NCBI GenBank assembly: GCA_903847335.1
Contig: CAINDI010000176.1
Location: forward strand, 1 to 38,368
DNA length: 38,368 nt
From: an uncultured Verrucomicrobiota bacterium
Lineage (GTDB): Bacteria > Verrucomicrobiota > Verrucomicrobiia > Palsa-1439
Direction: 5' to 3'
Positions 1-20,019 of the stretch are shown here, in pieces. Below the pieces are notes generated by a model that saw only the letters and a list, made by a program, of their open reading frames with translations, did no database searches and was not told the origin of the DNA. Positions within the stretch are counted from its first letter, which is position 1, and the number at the start of each line of letters is the position of its first letter. The position numbers were made by a program, and so were the translations under genes.

Positions 1-3000
1 CTGAATTGATTGTCAGACTAGCGGTATTTACCCCCGCATAATGCCCGCTATTATTGAGATTCGTACTCGCCCGTTGCCATTGGTAAACCAAGTTCGAACC
101 ACCCGCCGTCACGGAGAATATCGCCGGACTTCCGGTACAAATCGTCGAACTGACTGGCGACAGACTAATGGTCGGAACGGAATCAAAGACAGTAATCGTA
201 TTCGTCGCACTCGCCGACCCGCCATTCCAACTCACTGTCAAGATGGCGAGGTTGGTGCTGAGCGCTTGCGAATAGGTATGCACGAGGCTGTTCGTGTAGG
301 TCGAGACCCACAGATTGCTGGTATTGCCATCACCAAAATCCCACGTCCAATTCGTGATTGATCCACTGCTGATATCGGTGAACGTCACGGTCAACGGGGC
401 TGGACCATTGGTAGGAGTCACTGTAAAACTCGCCACCGCTTCGCTGGAGCCAATTCCGGTCATCCAATTCGTTACAACTCCACCGTCACTGAGGAACACT
501 ACGGCATTTGTCACCGCGCCACTCGACTGCGGCGCAAAATTCAAAACCGTCAGATTCGTACCGGCATAACCGGCCAACGTAATTTCATTCGTCGCGACTA
601 AATCAAACCCGACGGCAAGACTCAGATTCGTTATGGCGATATTTAACTGACCACACGCCTCATTCGTGATTGTAAAGCTGACGGCATTCGTCGCCCCCAC
701 CGCCACCAAGCCCACGGTGTTTGTTGACGGATTCACCACCAACGCACCGAGAGCCACCGTTTGAGTGGCTACTCCAGAAATCACTGTAGCTCCGCAACTA
801 TTACTGAACGCCGCCCGATACTGATAACCCTGATTACTCGGCAGTGCTGTAACGCTGTAACTCAAGTTCGTCGCATTCAAAACTGGAGTCCAGATGCTGC
901 CATCCGGGCTGGACGACCATTGCACGCTCGGCGTCGGGCTACCACTCACGCTCGCATGGAAAACCGTCGTCGCTCCAGCACACGTTGTCAGATTTGTTGG
1001 AGAACTATTAACCACCGGAGCAGTGTTTACCGTCACCGTTACCAATGCACAACCGGAGGTATGACTGCAAGGACTGGCGTTTTCATAGAGACCGTAGTAA
1101 GTGGTTGTGATTATCGGACTGACACTCAGATTATTACCGGTTCCGACCGGGGTGCCATCACACGAATCGGTGTACCAATGGATTACCTCACCAGTACCGC
1201 CGCCACCACCGATTAGCGTTAATGTTGTTGAGCCACCGGAGCAAATTGGATTTGTACTCGCCGACGCCGACGTCGGATCTGCTGACTGTGTATTCACTGC
1301 CGCGATTGTCGTATTGGTCACGCTCGCACCGTAAATACTGGCAATCAAAGTGTAAGTCCCACTGGCGGCTGCAGTCACACTCGGAATTGTTGGATTCTGA
1401 CTGAAATTGGTAAAGCTATTCGGCCCGCTCCAGCTATAGCTCGCGCCAGAAATTGACGGTGATGCCGTGAGATTCAATGTCGAACCCACACACACCGGTC
1501 CATTATTACTCGCGGTAATTCCCGTCAAATTCACAGCGGTAATCAAATTATTACTCGTGACTGTGCCGGTGGCCAACGCATTACTGACCACTAAAGTTAC
1601 TGGATACACACCATCGGTGCTGTACGTGTGGCTCACGCTACCGGTGGCGATATTCGTCGTCGTGCCATCGCCAAAGTTCCATTGCCAAGTCGTGGGCGTT
1701 CCGCCGGTCGTCGTGTCCGTAAACGTGACTGCAAACGGTACTACGCCATTTGTCGGACTCGCTGTGAAACTCGCGTTCAAAACCTGATTTGAGAAGAGAA
1801 TCGCCAAGTTACTGACGTTGGCGTTTAGCACGTTCGCCGCTGCGTTCGTAGTGAACGCCCCATTTTGGAAGGCAAATCCAAGATTATAGACCGAGTCAAT
1901 CCATTGGTTTGCGGGTGCACTTCCGAGCAATGTAACCACGGCCATCGTACCGCTGTTACTCCGCACCATCGAAACCGCTAAGCCGGACGGAAGATTGCTC
2001 ACCACCACGTTGTTGGTTAATTGGCTGCCATCCACTCCGGTAAACGTATCGCCACTCAGCGTAATCACCAACGGCTGAGAATTATCAATCGCCCCACTGT
2101 TCGTCGGCATCAGCTCGGTAAAGAGAGTCTTGCTGTAGGTAAGGATACCATTCCCAGTTTCGTACGCTCCGATGTCTGCCGCCGCACCGCGAACTCGCGC
2201 AAAACCGGTTCCGCGTTGGTCATAGGCGAGATTCAATGGATTCGCTCCGGCATCAATACAAAGTGAATTACTCGCCAGCGCAATGGTCGGTGTCGCGCCC
2301 CCGTTGTACGCCGGCGGTAAGATGACCCCCGGAACCGAGTTGCTAATATTATTCCCCAACCACACCGCCGTGCTGCTCGCGATCTGCGCTTGCACATAAC
2401 AGTTTGAGAAAAAGATTGTACCGGTGTATTCGCTGACATCCGCCCCACTGATTTGATTGCTCGCCAGAATGGAGCTCACCACTAAAAGATTACTAGGGGA
2501 ACCGCTGGCAATCGGATAAAGACCCCTATTCCCAACAATCGTGCAGTTTTCAATTAAACCCTGTATTCCTGCTGAACCGTAGTTAATCACGGCTCCGCTT
2601 TGACCTGCTTGATTCCCGTAAAACGTCGAATTCCGGATAATCGTTCGATCGGCTCCCGTCTGACTGGCTTGATAAAGCACCCCGCCTTTAGAGGAAGCGG
2701 AGTTACTAATAAAGGCGGAACTATCCAACACAATTGTGCCAGCACCCGCATAAATCACACCCCCACCATAGCCCATATTCGTCGGTCCGGCCGTGTTTTG
2801 CGCCACCAGACAATTGCTGATCGTTAACGAGTTCGGCCATCCACTCACCGTCGCAAATGCACCGCCACCGAAACCATTACTACCAGTATAGGAATCATTC
2901 ATCTGAACCACGCAGTTCTGGACCGTAGCCGTGCCCATAAAAATAAAGACCGCCGCCCCACCAACCTGATAGTTGGCAGCACCGGTGTAGTTATAGTACC

Positions 3001-6000
3001 CATACTGGAGGGTCAGATTCTGAATGGTCACAGTTTTAGGGACTGAATTGCTCACAATCAGAATCCGATCCACTGCATTACTCCGCGTGGTCGCACCTTG
3101 CAAGATAGTATTGGTCATCCCCAACCCGGTCAGCGTCAGTGACTTCGTAATCGTGATGCCACACTCGGTCCAGAGGTTGGAATTGAGGACGATGGTGTCA
3201 CCATCTTTTACTAAATTCGTCGTTACAGCTTTCGTCAACGTTGGGAAGGTATTGTGATTGTTCGTGGTGCCGGTCAAATCCACCGGCACATACCAAGTGT
3301 TTCCACCACTCGAACAGACATTCATCACCAATGTCAACGTCGGCGCATTCGTCGGTGCCGCACACGCTTCACTCGAACTTAACTGACAGTCCACCGTGTC
3401 CCCGGTGACTGGTGTATAACTAAAGCTCGCACTGCTATTTCCAGCCACCACCAGCCCGTTTGTCTTCCAAGTGTAACTTGGAGTCGGCCCCGCGTTCACT
3501 GGGTTTGCCGTGAAGGTAACCGAGGTACCGGAGCAGTTCGTCAACCCCGGACTCGCCGTCACTACGACCGAAGCGACGACACTATTCACCGTCAAACTTA
3601 CCGGTGCCGAAGTCACGCTGTCACCGGTGCTGTTGTAGACGATACAGCGGTAGCTGGTGGCATCCACATTCGCCGCCGGGTTAATCCTCAGGTTCGCCGT
3701 GGACACACCACTGAAATCGCCACCATTATTGAGATTCGTGTTCGCTTGCTGCCATTGGTAACTCGCCACACCGCTGGCGGTAATACTCAAAATTGCCGTA
3801 TTGCTCAAACAAACTGTCACCGGGACCGGCGCTAGCGTAATCACCGGCAAAGTAGCCCGAACCACAATCGTTTGCGAAGTACTGCTCGCTCCGACTGGTC
3901 CACTCACCGTTAAGGTCGCCAGATTAGTGCTGAACGGCGTCGTATAGGAATGCACCACACTTGTCGCAAGTGTATTCGTCGTACCGCCATCACCAAAGAT
4001 CCACGCCCGATTCGTAATCGTGCCGGTACTATTATCTGTAAATGTCACACTCAACGGCCCCGGTCCATTCGTCACGCTCGCGCTGAAAATCGCCACCGGC
4101 GGTGTCGTCGCCACGATCAAACCCGCTTGGGTGTTTGTCCCGCTCGCCAACGCATCGCTCACTACTAATGTCACCGAGTAAGTTCCGCTGTTCGTGTACG
4201 TATAACTCACCACATTGGTCGTCGCCACGTTCGTCGACCCACCATCGCCAAACGCCCACGCCCAATTCGTCGGTGACCCACCGGTCCCACCGGTCGTGGC
4301 ACTCGTAAACGTTACCGCAAAAGGTATCCCCCCTGTCGTCACATTCGCCGTGAAATTCACATTCAGAACCTCATTTGAGAAAATAATCGCTAGATTGGTC
4401 ACCGCTGAGTTAATCGCCTGCGAGGCATAGCCATGACTCAACGCCCCATCCGTGAAGGTGAAGCCGAGATTGGTCACCGAGTTGATGGCTTGATTTGCAA
4501 TTGCCGACCCACTCCACGTGCTCACCAGCGTGGTGTTATTGCTCTGGACTAAAGCTACCGTCAACCCCGCTGGCACAGCGGAGGTACTCACCAATCCGGC
4601 CGCCACGTAATCTTCGCCATTCGAACCGGTAAAGGTGTCACCAGTCAGCGTGATTACTAGCGGTTGCGAATTATCAATTCCACCCGTATTCGGCGGCACT
4701 AACTCGCTAAAGCGATTCGTGCTGTAGTTCAACGAAGTCGGCGTACCGGATTCGTACGCACCAATATCCGTTCCTGCGCCCCGCGTCCGGATATAACCAA
4801 CTCCCCGCTGGTCGGTGGCTAAACCCAAAACGTTCGTGCCGTGGTCAATCGCCAGACCGTTCGTAATCGCGCAGGTCATTGTCAAACCACCGTTATTCGC
4901 CGGTGGAGGAACACTCTGGAAAATCAACGGACTTAGCCCCACATAGCTGCCATGAATATTTGTCACGCCACCCACCGACGCAGGAGCATTGACAGTATCG
5001 TTCGCATTGTTAATGATTAGATTATTGCGGACATCATAGATAGAACCACCACCGGAACCACCCAAGTCAGTCGCGCCGTTGCTCGCCACAACGCTACTAA
5101 ATAAGCCGATGTAGGTCGCAGTCGTTGATTGATTGGCGATTCCACCGCCACCGGTGGGTGCGGTATTACTCACAATCGTACAGTTATAAACCATCCCAGT
5201 TGTGTAACCATTGATGAAATTAATCCCACCACCGCCGCTTGCTGTCCCAGCGGTATTCCCGTACACGGTACAGTTGATGAGCGTCGCAGCATTTCCCAAA
5301 GTCAATCCGCCACCAACACCTCCCGAATAGTTATACGCAAATGTACACCGTTGCAGGAGTGTAACACCACCGGCGATCGCTGAAAATAACCCGCCACTCG
5401 TATTCGCGCCAGTCCCTGAGTTCGTGTTCCCCACAAACGTCGAATCCGAAATCGTTACCTGTAGCACATTCGCATATAAGGCCGCGCTGTATCCACTCGC
5501 GGATTGATTCCCAGAAAAAACACACCGAACAATACTGACAAAACCAGTCGTGGAGCCAAAGTTAATCGCCGCCACGCCACCGGTCGAGGTAAGATTATTC
5601 TGGATGATACAGTTAGACATCGTTAGAGAGCTGCCAGATGTATTATTATACACTGCCCCACCACCCGCTGAGCCACCCACCCCAACGACTTGATTGCTGG
5701 AAATACTCACGCTCTGCAAAACCACTTGGGCCACATTAGGACTGTACAACGCCGAACCGATGGAGTTGGTCAGATTGCCATACTGGAGAGTTAAATCGCT
5801 AAACTTAACACTATTATTGAGCTGAAAGATTCGGTTGGTTCCCGATCCATAAGCCGCTGTCGGCTGAATAAAGGTATTGGTCATCCCGGAACCTTTCAGA
5901 TAACAAGCTCGACCGATAATCGTATTAGTCTCGTAGTACGTCCCGGCCATCAGGTTAATCGTATCGCAGTTAGTCGAAGAGACTTTCCCTACGGCATATA

Positions 6001-8851
6001 AAATCGTCTGCCATGGACTCGCAAACGTACCGGGATTCGCATTATTACCGGTGGGCGACACCCAATAGTTGGAAGACAACATTCCGTATGCAAAGAGCAC
6101 ATTTAAGTTCGTCACACTGCTCTTCGAGATAGCCGCCGCACCACCATGCGTGAACGCACTGTTTTGAAGCGTCATTCCGAGGTTGGTGATATTGTTCGCT
6201 GTTAAGTAATTCACAGCATTGCCCAGCAAGGAAAACGTCACCGTATTCGGGCCGGCGTACACCACACTCGCCACCAATCCCGTCGGCACATTGCTCGGCG
6301 TTGCCTTCCCCGTCACCACGAAGTCTTCTCCGGTCGAACCAGAAAAAGTATCGCCCACTAACGTCAAACTCAGCTTGTTTGAGATACTCCCGTCGTTTTG
6401 CCAACTGCCAACAAAATTCGTCCCGCTATAAGTAATCACCGGATCAATAAACGAAATCACCAAGTTCGAAACCGTCGAGTTCGTGACGGAAGCCGCCGGT
6501 GTGTTATAAAACGCGCTATTCTGAAATGCGAACGTCAGGTTGCTCACGTTGTTGATAGAGTTATGCGCGAGTGCATTTCCCAAGAGCGATGCAGAAATGT
6601 GGGTGTGCGTGGTATTTTCCCCCATAATCACAGCCGTCAAATTCGACGGCAGATTACCAACCGTCACCCAACCAGCCGCCACAAAATCCCCACTCCCCGG
6701 CGGCGTATTGAACATAGCGTTGGTCAACGTAATGACTATCGTATTTGCAATACTGCCATCGTTCGCCGCCGACTCGGTATACGTCGTACGATTGTAACTC
6801 AACTGCACATTACTCGCCGGATCAATGAACGTAATGCTCAGATTCGTCACTGAATTATTCGCAATCACCGCCGCATTCCCACCGACAAACGCGGAGTTAT
6901 TAAACGTCAGCCCCACATTGTTTGTGCTGTTGGCAGCCGCATGCGCTGTCGCTTTGCCGGTAAAACTAACCTGAACAGTATTCAGACTTGCGACGGTTAC
7001 GACCGCCGTCAAACCCGCCGGTACATTGGTCGGGATCACCGCACCGATGCCGACTAAGTCTTGCCCATTTCCACCGAGAAAACTATCACCGGTGAGCGTG
7101 ATGGTGTTGACGGTGCTAATTCGCCCATCATTCCACACGGCATCTTCATTAAAATTCGTTCCACCATAGGTCAAAGTCCCACTACTCACCGGAGCGTCAA
7201 AGAACACCACATTTAAATTACTCACACTATAATTGACGACATTGGATTGCAGTCCTGCACCGGCATAAGCTGTGAAAGATTGGTCGAGAAATGTAATTCC
7301 GAGATTGGTCACCGAGTTCACCGCCGCATGTGCGGTCGCGCTGCCGAGTAACGTGACGACCAAGTTTGTGCCGCTATTGGTCCGAACCATCGAGAGTGAT
7401 AAACCGGCCGGCACATTGGAAGTGCTCACCAAGCCGGTGGCGACAAAGTCCTGGCCGTTGGTACCGGCAAAAGTATCACCGGTGATTGTAATCACCAATG
7501 GCTGAGAGTTATTAATTACTCCGGTACCGCCTGGAGTCTGCTGCCAGAAATTGGTCGTGCTATATTTTAAATTGCTCGCCGCATACTCAAACGCCCCCAT
7601 ACACGCCTGCGCACCACGAACACGCACGAAGCCTGCGCCACGTTGGTCGTATGCCAAACCCAACGGATTCGCTCCATTTGTGATACAGGGACTACCGGCC
7701 TGCAACGCAAACGTCGGCGTGGAACCACCATTGTAAGTCGGAGTCAGCGACACCAGTTTTGGCGTGACATTCGTGATACTCGTACCTAGCCATTTTGGAT
7801 TACCATTCGCACCAACCCTAGTTTGTACTAAGCTGTTAGAAAAAATAATATAGTCGCCGGAATAATATTCACTCGCTGCACCGGCTGCACTGCCATTACT
7901 GGCGAGAATGGAACTGACGACCAATAGATTCGTCACCGGCGCCGAACCATTAGCGATCGCGCCGTAGTTTGAAATATTGGAAACAATCGTGCAGTTGTAA
8001 ATCAATCCAGTTGCACCGAGATTGCTAGTAAAGCCAATCGCACCACCCCCGCCGGCCCCTGGCGTACCGCCTGTGTTCCCATAGAAAGTAGAATTCCGAA
8101 TGATGAATCGATTGGTTGAATTATATGCATAAATCGCACCACCTTTACTCGGTGCAGTGTTCCCAGCAAAATAACAGCTATCGACCAACAAGGCACCACT
8201 TTGCATCATTACACCGCCACCTGTGTTTCCCGCACCATTCGGCCCGATTGTGTTATTTGCCACAATGCAGTTGCTCAGGGTCAGCGAGTTCATAATGGGA
8301 GAATCTTGCACAATACCTCCACCGCCAAAGCTGCTACCAGGAATCCACGAATCGTTCATTTGAATTACGCAGTTCTGCACTGTGACCGTCCCGGAGTAAT
8401 TGTAAATTCCAGCCCCACCCACACAATACGAGCCGGTTATCAAATTATTAGTCACGTAATAGCCATATTGAATCGTCATGTTCTGAATGTTTACAACATT
8501 ATTTGAAGGGTAAGTGACGCTACCAATCTGAAAGATTCGGTTCACGGCATTACTGCGAGTGGTGGCGCCTTGCAAAACCGTATTGGTCATTCCCAAGCCG
8601 GTAATCGTGAGGGATTTATTAGTGATGAGAACCCCACACTCCGTCCAAAGATTGGTGTTGAGCACGATGGTGTCACCGTTGGAGGTCAGAACGCTCGCCA
8701 CGGCGTTGGAGAGTGTTAAAAAGGTGTTTGTCCCACCGGGACCCGTCGGCACATACCAAGTGTTCGTCGCCGCTGTGACGGACGCAACGCCCAGCACAAA
8801 AATGAACGCCGCCAAAACCAAACGCACGCAACTGCTGAATCTTTTAATCAT
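1..8851 (-). CDS. Giant secreted multi-domain surface protein (beta-helix / choice-of-anchor Q / PKD / Ig-like), C-terminus outside window
   Basis: The frame opens at ATG 8849-8851 and stays open to the window edge, at least 2950 codons. I checked frame agreement at landmark motifs from start to edge, including codons around 8851, 6070, 4258, 1690 and 352. Residues 1-28 are a signal peptide (basic start, LVLAAFIFVLGVA core, A-rich cleavage region). Three Asn/Gly-rich parallel beta-helix modules follow, at about residues 30-420, 928-1370 and 1850-2230. Each ends in a choice-of-anchor Q type motif, DQRG then GAYE or GAFE, with the Asp at residues 402, 1347 and 2211. Six ~110-residue stalk-like repeats lie between the modules. 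Four PKD domains carry W-x-FGDG near residues 1532, 1616, 2391 and 2837, and Ig-like domains with YQWQ-type cores follow the PKDs. A choice-of-anchor D/HYDIN-like segment lies near residues 2700-2760. The likely role is adhesion or glycan binding outside the cell. Catalysis is not shown, and the anchor or sorting domain lies beyond the edge. Confidence 0.88.
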   Translation of the reverse strand, partial: MIKRFSSCVRLVLAAFIFVLGVASVTAATNTWYVPTGPGGTNTFLTLSNAVASVLTSNGDTIVLNTNLWTECGVLITNKSLTITGLGMTNTVLQGATTRSNAVNRIFQIGSVTYPSNNVVNIQNMTIQYGYYVTNNLITGSYCVGGAGIYNYSGTVTVQNCVIQMNDSWIPGSSFGGGGIVQDSPIMNSLTLSNCIVANNTIGPNGAGNTGGGVMMQSGALLVDSCYFAGNTAPSKGGAIYAYNSTNRFIIRNSTFYGNTGGTPGAGGGGAIGFTSNLGATGLIYNCTIVSNISNYGAIANGSAPVTNLLVVSSILASNGSAAGAASEYYSGDYIIFSNSLVQTRVGANGNPKWLGTSITNVTPKLVSLTPTYNGGSTPTFALQAGSPCITNGANPLGLAYDQRGAGFVRVRGAQACMGAFEYAASNLKYSTTNFWQQTPGGTGVINNSQPLVITITGDTFAGTNGQDFVATGLVSTSNVPAGLSLSMVRTNSGTNLVVTLLGSATAHAAVNSVTNLGITFLDQSFTAYAGAGLQSNVVNYSVSNLNVVFFDAPVSSGTLTYGGTNFNEDAVWNDGRISTVNTITLTGDSFLGGNGQDLVGIGAVIPTNVPAGLTAVVTVASLNTVQVSFTGKATAHAAANSTNNVGLTFNNSAFVGGNAAVIANNSVTNLSITFIDPASNVQLSYNRTTYTESAANDGSIANTIVITLTNAMFNTPPGSGDFVAAGWVTVGNLPSNLTAVIMGENTTHTHISASLLGNALAHNSINNVSNLTFAFQNSAFYNTPAASVTNSTVSNLVISFIDPVITYSGTNFVGSWQNDGSISNKLSLTLVGDTFSGSTGEDFVVTGKATPSNVPTGLVASVVYAGPNTVTFSLLGNAVNYLTANNITNLGMTLQNSAFTHGGAAAISKSSVTNLNVLFAYGMLSSNYWVSPTGNNANPGTFASPWQTILYAVGKVSSTNCDTINLMAGTYYETNTIIGRACYLKGSGMTNTFIQPTAAYGSGTNRIFQLNNSVKFSDLTLQYGNLTNSIGSALYSPNVAQVVLQSVSISSNQVVGVGGSAGGGAVYNNTSGSSLTMSNCIIQNNLTSTGGVAAINFGSTTGFVSIVRCVFSGNQSASGYSAALYANVLQVTISDSTFVGNTNSGTGANTSGGLFSAIAGGVTLLQRCTFAYNYSGGVGGGLTLGNAATLINCTVYGNTAGTASGGGGINFINGYTTGMVYNCTIVSNTAPTGGGGIANQSTTATYIGLFSSVVASNGATDLGGSGGGSIYDVRNNLIINNANDTVNAPASVGGVTNIHGSYVGLSPLIFQSVPPPANNGGLTMTCAITNGLAIDHGTNVLGLATDQRGVGYIRTRGAGTDIGAYESGTPTSLNYSTNRFSELVPPNTGGIDNSQPLVITLTGDTFTGSNGEDYVAAGLVSTSAVPAGLTVALVQSNNTTLVSTWSGSAIANQAINSVTNLGFTFTDGALSHGYASQAINSAVTNLAIIFSNEVLNVNFTANVTTGGIPFAVTFTSATTGGTGGSPTNWAWAFGDGGSTNVATTNVVSYTYTNSGTYSVTLVVSDALASGTNTQAGLIVATTPPVAIFSASVTNGPGPLSVTFTDNSTGTITNRAWIFGDGGTTNTLATSVVHSYTTPFSTNLATLTVSGPVGASSTSQTIVVRATLPVITLAPVPVTVCLSNTAILSITASGVASYQWQQANTNLNNGGDFSGVSTANLRINPAANVDATSYRCIVYNSTGDSVTSAPVSLTVNSVVASVVVTASPGLTNCSGTSVTFTANPVNAGPTPSYTWKTNGLVVAGNSSASFSYTPVTGDTVDCQLSSSEACAAPTNAPTLTLVMNVCSSGGNTWYVPVDLTGTTNNHNTFPTLTKAVTTNLVKDGDTIVLNSNLWTECGITITKSLTLTGLGMTNTILQGATTRSNAVDRILIVSNSVPKTVTIQNLTLQYGYYNYTGAANYQVGGAAVFIFMGTATVQNCVVQMNDSYTGSNGFGGGAFATVSGWPNSLTISNCLVAQNTAGPTNMGYGGGVIYAGAGTIVLDSSAFISNSASSKGGVLYQASQTGADRTIIRNSTFYGNQAGQSGAVINYGSAGIQGLIENCTIVGNRGLYPIASGSPSNLLVVSSILASNQISGADVSEYTGTIFFSNCYVQAQIASSTAVWLGNNISNSVPGVILPPAYNGGATPTIALASNSLCIDAGANPLNLAYDQRGTGFARVRGAAADIGAYETGNGILTYSKTLFTELMPTNSGAIDNSQPLVITLSGDTFTGVDGSQLTNNVVVSNLPSGLAVSMVRSNSGTMAVVTLLGSAPANQWIDSVYNLGFAFQNGAFTTNAAANVLNANVSNLAILFSNQVLNASFTASPTNGVVPFAVTFTDTTTGGTPTTWQWNFGDGTTTNIATGSVSHTYSTDGVYPVTLVVSNALATGTVTSNNLITAVNLTGITASNNGPVCVGSTLNLTASPSISGASYSWSGPNSFTNFSQNPTIPSVTAAASGTYTLIASIYGASVTNTTIAAVNTQSADPTSASASTNPICSGGSTTLTLIGGGGGTGEVIHWYTDSCDGTPVGTGNNLSVSPIITTTYYGLYENASPCSHTSGCALVTVTVNTAPVVNSSPTNLTTCAGATTVFHASVSGSPTPSVQWSSSPDGSIWTPVLNATNLSYSVTALPSNQGYQYRAAFSNSCGATVISGVATQTVALGALVVNPSTNTVGLVAVGATNAVSFTITNEACGQLNIAITNLSLAVGFDLVATNEITLAGYAGTNLTVLNFAPQSSGAVTNAVVFLSDGGVVTNWMTGIGSSEAVASFTVTPTNGPAPLTVTFTDISSGSITNWTWDFGDGNTSNLWVSTYTNSLVHTYSQALSTNLAILTVSWNGGSASATNTITVFDSVPTISLSPVSSTICTGSPAIFSVTAGGSNLVYQWQRASTNLNNSGHYAGVNTASLTINS
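2150..3300 (-). repeat. Beta-helix module C, a diverged duplicate of module A (7590-8770)
   Basis: Residues about 1850-2230 of the giant protein repeat the plan of residues 30-420. Both begin with TWYVP, then share the blocks DGDTIVLN or NGDTIVLN, NLWTECG, LTGLGMTNT and LQGATTRSNAV, and end with DQRG and GA-[FY]-E. Corresponding DNA blocks, for example around 3085-3190 and 8545-8660, are still clearly similar. The middle module (4760-6075) follows the same plan but is more diverged. This looks like internal duplication of a whole helix plus anchor-motif unit. Confidence 0.75.
6085..7550 (-). repeat. Run of four ~110-residue stalk-like repeats in the giant protein
   Basis: Four consecutive modules (about residues 434-922) share the pattern NDGxI, ITLxGDxFxG, G-[QE]-DFVxxG, NVPxGL, LxGxAxxH and NLxxxFxxxAF. 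Two further copies follow the second and third beta-helices, near 4370-4710 and 1790-2155. The spacing of about 105-120 residues, high Thr/Asn/Ser content and absence of Cys fit an extended beta-sandwich stalk. I recognise the pattern as common in large bacterial surface proteins but cannot assign a family name. Confidence 0.7.
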
Positions 8852-8911: not shown

Positions 8912-8922
8912 GCGTGACAATA
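8912..8922. promoter_or_regulatory. Shared 11-mer in the divergent intergenic region
   Basis: The 168-bp gap between the giant gene (minus) and the first propeller gene (plus) contains GCGTGACAATA. Its complement, TATTGTCACGC, recurs exactly at 36005-36015 in the icd promoter region. On the minus strand TTGTCA could act as a -35 box for the giant gene, but no convincing -10 follows at the right distance. Apart from this and the Shine-Dalgarno of the plus-strand gene I see no clear element in the gap. Confidence 0.25.
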
Positions 8923-9020: not shown

Positions 9021-11153
9021 ATGAAACATATTATCACCGGTCTACTTCTGCTTATTGCAACCCAACTCCACGCCGCCGGGAAACCGTTTGAAGTATTTGG
9101 CATTGGCGGCGGGGGTGGCATGTTAACACCGTCGGTCTCACCACAAGACCCGAATCTAATGTTTATCTCCTGCGACATGGGCGGCGTTTATCGCTCCACG
9201 GATAGCGGCAAACACTGGACCATGCTTCACTGGCAACAATTGAACAGCAGTTGTGTATGTCGCCCCCTCTTCGTCGGCGACGCCATTCTCTGGGTTAGTG
9301 GCTCAACGCCCAAGATTAGTCACGATAAAGGAGCAACATGGCAGGAATTATTATCAACGAAAACCTTACCCTGGAAAGGTCAAGTCATCCGCATGGCAGC
9401 TGACCCCACCGATTCCTCGGTACTCCTCTTCGGCACTGATGCTTTTGAGTTATGGCGCTCAACGGATGCCGGTAAGACTTGGACACTGAGTCGCTCCGGT
9501 AAAGTACATGCGATTTTTGGGCTAGGTAAAAAACTTTACGCCGCCGTGGAAAAAGCCTTTTTAATCAGCACCGATAAAGGCGCCACTTGGGAAGAAATCA
9601 ATCTTAGTACCTCTTTACCGGAGGCCAAGGAACATACTTTTCTCAGCTTGACCGGTGGTTCAGCAAACGGTGTCACCGTCCTCTTTGGCTCGGTTTACAA
9701 CGTCGGAATATTGCAATCGCTCGACGAGGGACGGACTTGGAAGAAGGTGGATCAATCCCGCGACTGCAATACGGTGTTGATGGCGACCAATCAGACCCGC
9801 GTGGTCTATGCCGCTCAAACTGGAGGATATCAAGGGGCCTCACACATGTTCCGGACCCGCGACGGCGGCACGACTTGGGAAGATTGCTTCCAGATGCACA
9901 GTCCGAAATCCAATGTGCAGCTAACGTGGCTCCAGACTGAACTCAAATGGGGAACACTGATTTCACCATTCGGCGCCGCGAATTCACTGACGGATCCCAA
10001 GGTGGCGTTTATTAGTACACAGAGCGATTTTTACAGCACGCGCGATGGCGGCGATTCGTGGCAACAGATGCAAAATGAGCAAGTTGCGACCCACCGGTAT
10101 CGCGGGATCGGCTTAGAGGTGACCGGTAGCTGGCAATTTCTACTGGATCCGCTCGATAAAAACCGCCGCTACATCGCCTTCACTGACATCGGATTTCTCC
10201 GGAGTACAGACCGAGGTGAAACGTGGAGTCATTCCGCAAAAGGTTGTCCATGGGGCAACACTTTTTATCAAGTAGTTTTTGACCCCGCGATTTCGAGCCG
10301 GATGTATGCCGCCACCAGTTCCCGGCATGATATTCCCAATTGGACAGCCGTTGCTCCTCTCAAGCCGGGTCCGAATGCAAGGGGTGGCATATGTATTTCG
10401 GACGATGCGGGCGTCACTTGGAAACCGTCGACCAATGGGCTGCCCTTGTTGCCCTGCACCTCTATCTGTCTCGACCCACGGGATTCCAAAACGATTTACA
10501 CCACCGTCTACGAAGGGGGCTGCTACAAATCTGTCGATGGCGGACAAACTTGGGTGAATAAATCCACCGGACTTGGTAACCCGGGAAACCTTCACGCTTA
10601 TAAAGTCTTCGTTCACCCCAAGACCGGTGATGTGTATTGTAGCATCACCGCCTTCCGGATAAACGGTAATGAGTTCCCGGTACCCGGTGGATTGTGGAAG
10701 TCGACTAACGGCGGCGATTCATGGATTGACCTCACGCATAACCTCGAACTGCACTGGCCGGGTGGATTCGCCGTCAATCCGAATGATCCAAATATTATTT
10801 ATTTAGCCGCCGCGACCATTGCCGGTGGCCCAGAAGGTGGGATTTATGCGACGCGCGATGGTGGTAAAACATGGAAGCGCCTTCTCAAGGATGCAGATTT
10901 TGCCGCCATCGGAGGGCGCGCTTATGTGCATGCCTTCTACGTCAACCTGGACCCAACCAACCCCGACCATGTCTATCTCGGCACTGTTGGGCATGGCTTG
11001 TGGGTAAGTTTGGACGCTGGTAAAACGTGGAAGCAAATCAATGGACTGCCGTTCGCCGAACCCACCAACGTTACATTCGATCCCGAGAATGCCGATCTCA
11101 TGTATGTCTGCACTTGGGGCGGCGGCACTTGGCATGGTCCGCGATTACCGTAG
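9021..11153 (+). CDS. Secreted Asp-box (BNR) beta-propeller protein, GH74-like, copy 1
   Basis: The 710-residue protein has a signal peptide (residues 1-18, cleavage near LHA-A) and about 13 Asp-box motifs of the type S/T-x-D-x-G-x-T-W (STDAGKTW, STDKGATW, TRDGGDSW, SVDGGQTW). This fits two seven-bladed propellers, as in GH74 xyloglucanases and sialidase/VPS10-like proteins. The start GIGGGGG...CDMGGVYRSTD resembles the GH74 N-terminus, where the Asp of TDxGGxYR is a catalytic residue; here it is D52. A second GH74-like motif, TDIGFLRS, has D389. The Asp pair as catalytic residues is inference. A strong Shine-Dalgarno (AAAAGGAAAT) precedes ATG 9021. It heads a plus-strand run and is followed 36 nt later by a close paralogue. 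Its likely role is cleaving or binding an extracellular glycan; substrate unknown. Confidence 0.85.
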   Translation: MKHIITGLLLLIATQLHAAGKPFEVFGIGGGGGMLTPSVSPQDPNLMFISCDMGGVYRSTDSGKHWTMLHWQQLNSSCVCRPLFVGDAILWVSGSTPKISHDKGATWQELLSTKTLPWKGQVIRMAADPTDSSVLLFGTDAFELWRSTDAGKTWTLSRSGKVHAIFGLGKKLYAAVEKAFLISTDKGATWEEINLSTSLPEAKEHTFLSLTGGSANGVTVLFGSVYNVGILQSLDEGRTWKKVDQSRDCNTVLMATNQTRVVYAAQTGGYQGASHMFRTRDGGTTWEDCFQMHSPKSNVQLTWLQTELKWGTLISPFGAANSLTDPKVAFISTQSDFYSTRDGGDSWQQMQNEQVATHRYRGIGLEVTGSWQFLLDPLDKNRRYIAFTDIGFLRSTDRGETWSHSAKGCPWGNTFYQVVFDPAISSRMYAATSSRHDIPNWTAVAPLKPGPNARGGICISDDAGVTWKPSTNGLPLLPCTSICLDPRDSKTIYTTVYEGGCYKSVDGGQTWVNKSTGLGNPGNLHAYKVFVHPKTGDVYCSITAFRINGNEFPVPGGLWKSTNGGDSWIDLTHNLELHWPGGFAVNPNDPNIIYLAAATIAGGPEGGIYATRDGGKTWKRLLKDADFAAIGGRAYVHAFYVNLDPTNPDHVYLGTVGHGLWVSLDAGKTWKQINGLPFAEPTNVTFDPENADLMYVCTWGGGTWHGPRLP

Positions 11154-11189
11154 GCAATTAACCCAATGAAAACACCCCAGAAAGGCCTT

Positions 11190-13316
11190 ATGAAACAGAT
11201 TCTCACCGCTCTTCTACTTCTGACTACAACCCAACTCCACGCAGCGGAAAAACCATTTGAAGTGGTCGGCATCGGCGGTGCCGGCGGAATGTTTACTCCG
11301 GCGGTTTCGCCACAAGATCCAAACCTAATGTTTATCTCCTGCGATATGGGCGGCGTTTATCGCTCCACCGATGGCGGCAAACATTGGGCGATGCTCCATT
11401 GGCGGCAATTGAATACTAGCCTCGCGTGTCGCCCACTATTCGTCGGCGATGCCATCCTCTGGATTAGTGGACCAACGCCCAAGATTAGCCGAGATAAAGG
11501 AGCAACATGGCAGGAATTATTATCAACGAAAACCTTACCCTGGAAAGGTCAAGTCATCCGCATGGCTGCCGATTCCACCGATTCGGCAGTGCTCCTTTTT
11601 GGAACTGACGCCAGTGAGTTGTGGCGGTCAACCGATACTGGCAAAACCTGGAGACTGAGCCGCTCCGGTAAAGTGCATGCGATTTTGGGGCTGGGCAAAA
11701 AACTCTATGCCGCCGTGGATAAGGCCTTTTTTATCAGCACCGACAAAGGCGACACTTGGGAAGAAATCAATCTGGGAGCTTCCGTACCGGAGGCCAAGGA
11801 ACAAACATTTCTCAGCTTGACCGGTGGTTCAGCAAACGGTGTCACCGTCCTCTTTGGCTCGATTGCTGACGTTGGCATGCTCCGGTCACTCGATGAAGGA
11901 AAGACTTGGAAACTCGTCGATACTGCCTGGGGTTGCACTGAAGTGGTAATGGCAGAGAATCAAACCAAAATCGTCTATGCGGCTCAAACAGACTCCAGTG
12001 AAGCCCGGTTTATGTACCGGACACAGGATGGTGGTGAGACTTGGAAGGATTGCTTCCGGATGAAGGGAAGACGCAATGTGCAGCCTTCTTGGGTTCAGAC
12101 CGAACTTATATGGGGATATTATTTTTCACGCTTTGGTGTGAGTGTTTCGGCGACTGATGCGAAGATTGCACTTCTCAGCACGCAGGGCGATTTTTACCTC
12201 ACCCGCGATGGCGGCGATTCATGGCAGCAGATGATGAATGAAGTGGTGGCACCAAAACTTTACCGGTGTACAGGGCTAGAAGTGACAAGCTGCTGGAAAT
12301 TCTTATTTGATCCATTCGACAAAAACCGGCGGTACATTAACTATACCGATATTGGTTTTACTCGCAGCACGGACCAGGGTGAAACATGGAGTTGGTCCGC
12401 CCAAGGCTGCCCGTGGTACAACACTTTCTATGAAGTCATTTTTGATCCGGTGGTTCCGGGTCGGATGTACGCAGCCACTAGCTCGCGCCACGATATTCCC
12501 AACTGGACAGCCATTGCGGCTCTCAAACCCGGTCCAAACTCAATGGGTGGCGTCTGTATTTCAGAGGATGCGGGGGCGACTTGGAAACCTTTGAATAAGG
12601 GACTGCCGCTACTGCCGTGTACTTCAATTTGTCGCGACCCACGTGAACTACAAACGCTCTACACCACACTGTACGAAGGTGGTTGCTACAAGTCTGTGGA
12701 TGGTGGTTTGACTTGGACGAACAAATCCACCGGCTTGGGTAATCCGGGTAACCTGCACGCCTACAAAGTTTTTGTCCATCCCAAGACCGGTGAAGTGTAT
12801 TGCAGTATTACCGCCTTTCGGAAGAACGGAAATGAATATCCGGTGCCCGGTGGTTTATGGAAATCCTCTAATGGCGGCGATTCATGGATTGATCTCACGC
12901 AAGATCTCAAGCTCCACTGGCCAGCCGGATTCGCTGTGAATCCAAACGATCCCAATGTTATTTATATTGCTGCCGCCAGCATTAAAGGTGGACTCGAAGG
13001 CGGGATTTATGCGACGCGCGACGGTGGTAAAACATGGAAGCGCCTCCTTAAAGATGAAGACTTTTTTTCCACTGGCGGACTTCCATACGTGCAGGCGTTT
13101 CACGTCAATCTCGAACCGGGACATCCGGACCATGTTTACCTCAGCACCGGCACACACGGTTTGTGGGTGAGCCTGAACGATGGTCAAACATGGCAGCGCC
13201 TGGAAGGATTACCTTTCATCAGCGTGAATAATGTAACCTTTGATCCAGACAATGCCGACCTCATGTACGTCGCTACATTTGGCGGTGGCGTCTGGCGCGG
13301 CCCACGCCTCCCATAG
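11190..13316 (+). CDS. Secreted Asp-box (BNR) beta-propeller protein, GH74-like, copy 2
   Basis: This 708-residue protein is a tandem paralogue of the preceding gene, collinear over its full length with the same Asp-boxes (STDGGKHW, STDTGKTW, STDKGDTW, TRDGGETW, SVDGGLTW) and the same candidate residues (D52 in CDMGGVYRS; the Asp of YTDIGFTRS). I chose ATG 11190 because AAAGG lies just upstream and the signal peptide MKQILTALLLL then aligns with copy 1. An in-frame ATG at 11166 has no ribosome site. Two DNA patches (11493-11566 and 11808-11861) are identical to copy 1 (9324-9397 and 9639-9692), while surrounding codons differ widely. Eight nt separate it from the GH1 gene. Confidence 0.84.
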   Translation: MKQILTALLLLTTTQLHAAEKPFEVVGIGGAGGMFTPAVSPQDPNLMFISCDMGGVYRSTDGGKHWAMLHWRQLNTSLACRPLFVGDAILWISGPTPKISRDKGATWQELLSTKTLPWKGQVIRMAADSTDSAVLLFGTDASELWRSTDTGKTWRLSRSGKVHAILGLGKKLYAAVDKAFFISTDKGDTWEEINLGASVPEAKEQTFLSLTGGSANGVTVLFGSIADVGMLRSLDEGKTWKLVDTAWGCTEVVMAENQTKIVYAAQTDSSEARFMYRTQDGGETWKDCFRMKGRRNVQPSWVQTELIWGYYFSRFGVSVSATDAKIALLSTQGDFYLTRDGGDSWQQMMNEVVAPKLYRCTGLEVTSCWKFLFDPFDKNRRYINYTDIGFTRSTDQGETWSWSAQGCPWYNTFYEVIFDPVVPGRMYAATSSRHDIPNWTAIAALKPGPNSMGGVCISEDAGATWKPLNKGLPLLPCTSICRDPRELQTLYTTLYEGGCYKSVDGGLTWTNKSTGLGNPGNLHAYKVFVHPKTGEVYCSITAFRKNGNEYPVPGGLWKSSNGGDSWIDLTQDLKLHWPAGFAVNPNDPNVIYIAAASIKGGLEGGIYATRDGGKTWKRLLKDEDFFSTGGLPYVQAFHVNLEPGHPDHVYLSTGTHGLWVSLNDGQTWQRLEGLPFISVNNVTFDPDNADLMYVATFGGGVWRGPRLP

Positions 13317-18546: not shown

Positions 18547-20019
18547 ATGAAATCTATCCTAGCGGTTATCTTGTTCTGTATCGCAATTGATCTACACGCC
18601 GCCGACATTACGATTTGGCCGGGCGACGTGAAGGCATGGACGAATATCGATGTTTATGCGTTGCGCGAAGCTGAGGCAAAAGCCGCATACGATGACGCTG
18701 CGAAGGGGGCGCCCGACCCGGTAAAAATTGCACCTTATAAAGAGCTTGTGCAACCGGCGAAGGAACCGGATATACAAATCGAACAGGCAACGGACGGAGT
18801 GAGCGGCAAGCGAGGCATGAGATTGACGTTCGCGGGCGGGCGCATGCCAACGATTGCGATGAAACCGTCCGAGACTGATTGGACGAAATTCAAAACCTTC
18901 AAAGCAACGGTGACGGCATCGCGAACCTGCTTGGTGGTCTTTCGTGTGATGTGTGACAAAAGTCAATACGGGACACAACATAATGACGGAGTTTCGCGCT
19001 GGGAATTTGCCGCGCGCTGCGAGGCCGGGAAAAACCTGCTCGTCACCGCCGGGCCACCCGATCCAATGAAGTGGAAAAATATCACATCGCTGGAAATCTA
19101 CATGTATAATCCGCACCTCGATGAGTCGATTATCGTCAATGCAATCGAGCTTTCAAGTAACCCACCGGTAGAGACCACACCTTTCCGCGAATTGAACAAG
19201 CATATGGTCATTCTCCCGGCGGGCGGATGGAAAATGCTTGGCACCAATCTCGTCGTGAAAGACGTTGATGAGCTTGCCGAGAAACTGAAAGATAAATGGA
19301 CAAAACCAGAAGATAAGTCTGCACCGGAACTCGAAGCGGACTTTCGGTCAGAATACGACAAACTTAAAAAAGACCACCCGAAAGCCGCGTTCATGACACT
19401 CCGGGATGGTGACAAGGGATGCGATCCGAAAGATCCAAGCAAGGTATTTTCGGGATGGATGGATACCGGAACACCGTCGCACGGACCGATGTCATTGACG
19501 CTTGCTAGCTTTCGTAACTCCGGGAAAAGCGTCGAGATTGAAACCTGCTTTCGCGCCCGACCAGGATTCTTACGCGTGGACCTGTCGAGCATCCCAAAAG
19601 AGGCGACGATTCTTGCCGCTCGACTAATTCTTGTTCGCGGACTTAGCATTATTGCCACCAACTGGGAGACCAAGCCAACGCTGTTCGTCGCCGAACCGTG
19701 TCGGCGCGAATGGAACGAATATCAAGTCAACTGCTTTGAATACGCAAAAGACCAGTTCTGGAAGGACTACTCCGCACAATCTTGGGGTGAAGATGGTGAC
19801 TGCGATGCGGTAATGCTAGCGCACGGACCTGCGGCAGGTAAGACACTAACGCTCGACTTCGCTGAGGCCGTAAAATATTGGACCGTTGGCCGGCATGAGA
19901 ATCACGGCTTTATCATTTACGGCTCACCGAAGTACATAGATTATTTCCATACGGCCACGCGTGAATCCCCCACAATCAGCAACCGCCCGGCATTATTGGT
20001 TATCTACGAACCAAAGTAG
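18547..20019 (+). CDS. Secreted protein with C-terminal DNRLRE-like domain
   Basis: The 490-residue protein has a signal peptide (residues 1-18, LAVILFCIAIDLHA). Residues about 20-205 look like a galactose-binding or CBM-like beta-sandwich, with hydrophobic strands and a WTKFKTF core. Residues 205-290 are charged and partly helical. Residues about 310-490 resemble the DNRLRE domain: LRVDLSSIPKEATILAARL, then AVKYWTVG, HGFIIYG and a final LLVIYEP. Such domains are usually structural, for surface binding or assembly, rather than catalytic. It is the last plus-strand gene of the propeller/GH1/transporter run, 32 nt after the symporter, and faces a convergent gene 13 nt away. I do not recognise a specific function. 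Confidence 0.68.
   Translation: MKSILAVILFCIAIDLHAADITIWPGDVKAWTNIDVYALREAEAKAAYDDAAKGAPDPVKIAPYKELVQPAKEPDIQIEQATDGVSGKRGMRLTFAGGRMPTIAMKPSETDWTKFKTFKATVTASRTCLVVFRVMCDKSQYGTQHNDGVSRWEFAARCEAGKNLLVTAGPPDPMKWKNITSLEIYMYNPHLDESIIVNAIELSSNPPVETTPFRELNKHMVILPAGGWKMLGTNLVVKDVDELAEKLKDKWTKPEDKSAPELEADFRSEYDKLKKDHPKAAFMTLRDGDKGCDPKDPSKVFSGWMDTGTPSHGPMSLTLASFRNSGKSVEIETCFRARPGFLRVDLSSIPKEATILAARLILVRGLSIIATNWETKPTLFVAEPCRREWNEYQVNCFEYAKDQFWKDYSAQSWGEDGDCDAVMLAHGPAAGKTLTLDFAEAVKYWTVGRHENHGFIIYGSPKYIDYFHTATRESPTISNRPALLVIYEPK

Follow-up and report, generated by a model that had tools for sequence, protein, structure and literature searches.

A giant open frame at the contig edge

The window analysed here, the whole stretch of 38,368 bases, is an entire contig (C176) of a source genome of 2.35 Mb in 177 contigs. 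Its left end is filled by a minus-strand frame of 2950 codons without a stop, running from ATG 8851 to base 2, while the other five frames over the same 8.85 kb hold 69-200 stops each. The frame is open already from a TTG at 8920, and the ATG at 8851 is the more plausible start. A single frame across 1-8851, unfinished at the edge, had been proposed in the earlier note, and both statements held: no stop or frameshift was seen, and the frame reaches base 2 of the complete contig. Since the window is the entire contig, the truncation of the gene is an assembly edge. Its product is plausibly among the largest proteins of its genome.

Domain matches span nearly the whole length of the protein, and its modules follow one another from the N-terminus in this order (all on the minus strand):

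2..8851, minus strand: whole open frame from ATG 8851, 2950 codons, cut by the contig edge
8768..8851, minus strand: signal-peptide-like N-terminus (MIKRFSSCVRLVLAAFIFVLGVASVTAA), judged by eye from the translation
7580..8767, minus strand: BH1, right-handed beta-helix with a choice_anch_Q domain at its end (7583-7738), from profile, AlphaFold and Foldseek
7187..7576, minus strand: stalk repeat S1, from repeat alignment and profile
6815..7183, minus strand: stalk repeat S2, from repeat alignment and profile; groups with second-position repeats of genome G164
6440..6811, minus strand: stalk repeat S3, from repeat alignment and profile; groups with third-position repeats of G164
6086..6439, minus strand: stalk repeat S4, from repeat alignment, profile and tree
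4742..6073, minus strand: BH2, beta-helix with choice_anch_Q (4748-4906), from profile
4373..4738, minus strand: stalk repeat S5, from repeat alignment and profile
3845..4372, minus strand: PKD1 and PKD2, profile matches at 4130-4318 and 3860-4087
3305..3847, minus strand: two Ig-like domains, the first with an I-set/Ig_3 match, the second assigned from position and 30% identity only
2150..3301, minus strand: BH3, beta-helix with choice_anch_Q (2156-2317), from profile; 58% identical to BH1
1784..2146, minus strand: stalk repeat S6, from repeat alignment and profile
1532..1783, minus strand: PKD3, profile match at 1562-1747
746..1531, minus strand: three Ig-like domains (Ig_2-like, Ig_7, Ig-like), the third assigned from its place in the chain and from 38% identity to the Ig_2-like one
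437..745, minus strand: about 100 residues left unassigned, with strands patterned like choice-of-anchor D/ASPM-SPD2-Hydin on visual inspection only
179..436, minus strand: PKD4, profile match at 188-403
2..178, minus strand: final Ig-like domain, truncated where the contig ends; shares 54% identity with the Ig domain that follows PKD2

The composition anticipated in the earlier note was recovered: three beta-helix/choice-of-anchor Q units (three choice_anch_Q profile matches), six stalk-like repeats (36-53% identity to the first copy when aligned), four PKD domains (four profile matches) and several, about six, Ig-like domains with matches to I-set/Ig_3/Ig_2/Ig_7. The stretch at 437-745 gave no Pfam or NCBIfam profile match at E 0.1, and choice-of-anchor D, an impression by eye, was dropped as its assignment. 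Self-comparison revealed a block duplication, pairing BH1 with BH3 (58%), PKD1 with PKD3 (63%), PKD2 with PKD4 (55%) and the Ig domain after PKD2 with that after PKD4 (54%). A scan of GTDB contigs for a close relative returned matches over the PKD/Ig half only.

When the first 300 bases were compared with the other contigs of the genome, no overlap was found; what matched was an internal repeat and some short stretches at chance level. The genome was also searched with PKD, choice_anch_Q and the entire protein as queries, and nothing beyond the giant gene itself came back. Contig C20 begins with a PEP-CTERM fragment that looked like a candidate for the missing C-terminus, but it was discarded because a complete protein on contig C130 ends in an identical sequence. 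The same PEP-CTERM end is thus encoded at the edges of both contigs (C20, 1-90; C130, 52-885), which are therefore probably adjacent in the genome. PEP-CTERM matches in the source genome number 16, of which 13 were counted over the cut-off.

The giant gene is adjoined by a Sortilin-Vps10/BNR-repeat protein in two copies on the divergent strand (9021-13316). In G164 one such protein, 26-28% identical, lies directly downstream of the counterpart gene (L164, 12706-15078), and this gene neighbourhood may be conserved. A sugar-utilisation-like cluster (GH1, GDSL, MFS) beside the giant gene contains a 490-residue protein without a Pfam match (18547-20019).

A stalk repeat outside the domain libraries

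The repeat of about 120 residues that occurs six times in the giant protein has no counterpart in the libraries searched. Thirty copies compared with Pfam-A gave a best E of 0.0048, to one unrelated model, and no family common to two copies; one copy reached Pfam ChiW_Ig_like at an E of 0.097 only. Neither NCBIfam nor the PDB sequences returned a match. A model of two repeats had a mean pLDDT of 56, with the S4 core at about 70-84, and was beta-rich. Foldseek placed this low-confidence model against antibody Fabs and other generic Ig/beta-sandwich structures at a TM of about 0.2; the modelled fold looks like a beta-sandwich. The name "stalk" and the role it implies are inferred from tandem occurrence.

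The repeat is thinly but widely distributed. Searched with a profile built from the six copies in the window, 6 of 288 further Verrucomicrobiota genomes contained it, and matches extend to other classes of that phylum, Bacteroidota and Bacillota. With a wider profile it was present in 2 of 384 genomes of the class, the source genome included, in none of the 10 other genomes of the family, and in Chitinophaga fulva. A Flammeovirga protein with a T9SS sorting domain carries 11 tandem copies and a Brevibacillus plasmid protein three; none was found in the phages searched. The joining of tandem repeats to a T9SS sorting domain in Bacteroidota places the stalk on exported proteins.

An ordered cassette shared with another class

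Genome G164, from the same phylum and another class, contains open reading frames of 2594, 2660, 1915 and 1430 codons that combine beta-helix/choice_anch_Q units with stalk repeats. The N-terminal half of the giant protein (beta-helix, S1-S4, beta-helix) is collinear with the giant G164 proteins, at 46% identity over 888 columns for BH1-S4 and 43.6% over 1093 columns for window residues 451-1519. In a tree of 51 repeats, copies cluster by their position in the chain and not by protein, with supports of 98/98 for the first position, 97/89 for the second and 99/98 for the third; the fourth is weaker (92/80 for part). The identity of S2, for example, reaches 63-66% with three of the second-position repeats of G164, but only 37-48% with the remaining repeats of the giant protein. 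An alignment of three stalk repeats was left out, having been aligned on shared sequence. The grouping of S1, S2 and S3 by position argues that the cassette is old and ordered, with each stalk position individually conserved, and on the same sequence comparisons duplication in G164 affected whole cassettes.

Spread of the cassette by horizontal transfer was also considered. Its occurrence is patchy (in 0 of the 10 family members and, with the source counted, in 2 of 384 class genomes), but the cassette's identity to G164, about 46%, is not above that of a housekeeping gene (Tag glycosylase, 56%).

The G164 proteins also bear on the integrity of the frame itself. Their collinearity over more than 1,000 residues within single open reading frames (2594 and 2660 codons) argues against an assembly artefact or a set of separate genes. 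An origin of part of the long frame in the assembly, through repeats collapsed or joined or through a mis-binned contig, is highly improbable, even though the gene contains internal repeats, the genome is fragmented (177 contigs) with 4.45% contamination, and the stalk is missing from all 10 other genomes of the family. The internal repeats are 61-86% identical at the DNA level over short pieces, too divergent for simple collapse, and the module order recurs in intact proteins of another genome. The trigger factor encoded on the contig shares 73% identity with that of the other member of its genus and 51-68% with those of the remaining family members, from which the contig appears correctly binned. 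Probe sites for EUB338-III and Ver47 are both present without mismatch in the 16S gene of the source genome, which we take from the probes' specificity to mark Verrucomicrobiota. A second, divergent trigger-factor C-terminal domain (22.8 bits) is encoded on another contig of this genome (C121, 18188-18454; L185), as a paralogue or as contamination.

In the complete G164 relatives the chain stops about 10 residues past a choice_anch_Q domain, and neither PEP-CTERM nor any other recognised anchor is present. One G164 relative (L162, 4578-8665) is split by a frame change between its first and second stalk repeats (open reading frames 4578-6281 and 6020-8665), which reflects either a broken gene or a mistake in the assembly. 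A separate observation concerns a short C-terminal motif, G-[ST]-[VL]-[FY]-x-[IV]-[RQNK]-stop, carried by about 10 mostly large, mostly secreted proteins of different architectures (GSVYKVR, GTVYSIR, GSVFKIR, GTVYLIR and GTLFIIQ, for instance) at L162, L164, L166, L211, L213 and L220 of G164 and L172 of genome G218. Of 383 C-termini sampled in G164, 11 match it, where the internal rate would predict about 0.2, though the pattern had been drawn from some of these same proteins. It is possibly an undescribed short sorting signal.

Beta-helix heads and a putative binding role

The three choice_anch_Q matches (NCBIfam NF041518) score 62.4, 54.0 and 51.7 bits, well above the curated cut-off of 25. 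As in other choice-of-anchor Q proteins, each closes a beta-helix; here, however, the domain is internal three times and is followed directly by a stalk repeat instead of serving as a terminal anchor. AlphaFold models BH1 as a beta-helix with confident rungs over roughly the first 300 residues; the rest of the model fails, and confidence is low in the choice_anch_Q part. Foldseek aligned BH1 with pectin methylesterases, pectate and alginate lyases, epimerases and phage tailspikes, at a probability of 1.0 to pectin methylesterases and lyases, which identifies the fold as a right-handed beta-helix.

These best structural matches are enzymes, and the beta-helices could be read as a polysaccharide lyase, esterase or epimerase, making the protein a cell-surface degrader akin to the giant carbohydrate-active proteins of the PVC superphylum. 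Adjoining genes include a GH1, a GDSL esterase, a sugar transporter and epimerases, and beta-helix domains are found together with PL6 lyase domains in a published PVC giant protein (PMC12057145). The sequences of the helices nevertheless make this reading rather unlikely. In the helix body of nine aligned beta-helix units the columns conserved at 80% are mainly Gly, Asn and Thr, and in this small alignment no D, E, K, R or H reaches that level; the lack of a conserved charged residue argues against a lyase or esterase. Furthermore, Pfam and NCBIfam gave no lyase or esterase match in the giant protein, and the beta-helix profile matched no PDB sequence.

We lean instead, with reasonable confidence, toward a surface-tethered protein that binds glycans or matrix, with non-catalytic beta-helix heads on a putative beta-sandwich stalk. 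There is a precedent: CBM-54 of ChiW is a beta-helix that binds a polysaccharide and does not cleave it, and is joined to Ig-like domains (PMC5132251). The giant protein shares with ChiW this pairing of a non-catalytic beta-helix and Ig-like domains on an exported protein (PMC5132251), but it has no SLH or GH18 domains, and the structural match between ChiW and the stalk is weak (4.6 A over 110 columns). With chlamydial Pmps and other beta-helical adhesins it shares the right-handed beta-helix, FxxN-like motifs, GG-hydrophobic turns, which are more frequent in its beta-helices than in shuffled sequences, and the PVC superphylum. In contrast, its Chlam_PMP score (17.3 bits) falls below the Pfam cut-off of 20.6, and the visible part has no autotransporter barrel. 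To our knowledge, Pmps also lack the Ig, PKD and stalk sequence that is abundant here. In Pmp proteins the GG-hydrophobic motifs build the helix and the loops face outward (PMC10715098).

The signal peptide and the kinds of domain present predict a surface location. The visible 2950 residues would be the N-terminal part of a giant protein that Sec exports from the cytoplasm, that passes the outer membrane by some further route and that is presumably fixed to the cell surface through a C-terminal anchor past the contig edge. There the stalk, Ig-like and PKD domains would form a long spacer on which three non-catalytic beta-helices present loops binding glycans, matrix or other cells. The beta-helix and S1-S4 would have been inherited as a unit, and the protein would have grown by duplication of beta-helix-plus-stalk and PKD-plus-Ig blocks.

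No anchor is visible in the 2950 residues. Given the PEP-CTERM proteins of the same genome, our guess is an anchor of the PEP-CTERM/exosortase kind; it may be a different one, since the complete G164 relatives end without PEP-CTERM. Those endings, which carry no recognised anchor, together with the anchorless visible part, would also suit a protein released from the cell, extracellular or matrix-forming. We regard release as quite improbable: the C-terminus lies beyond the contig edge, and spacers of the Ig, PKD and stalk kind typically belong to tethered proteins.

PVC bacteria are already known to have giant modular surface proteins (PMC12057145). The present protein resembles them as a very long exported modular protein with beta-helices; it differs in its size, about 3,000 visible residues being far below the largest, and in having no enzymatic domain in the visible part. 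New are the ordered cassette and the repeat itself. On balance, the stalk repeat is probably an extracellular domain family not yet described, in that Pfam-A, NCBIfam and the PDB have no entry for it. The family would occur in at least Verrucomicrobiota, Bacteroidota and Bacillota on proteins with different sorting systems, and in Verrucomicrobiota it would make up an ordered cassette of four repeats following a beta-helix head, its positions kept distinct across classes. The conserved order of diverged repeats suggests a separate role for each stalk position. Giant surface proteins are often dismissed as low-information repeats; the present one contains a repeat overlooked by the standard domain libraries despite its recurrence in three phyla, and a stalk profile would annotate many surface proteins now labelled "hypothetical".
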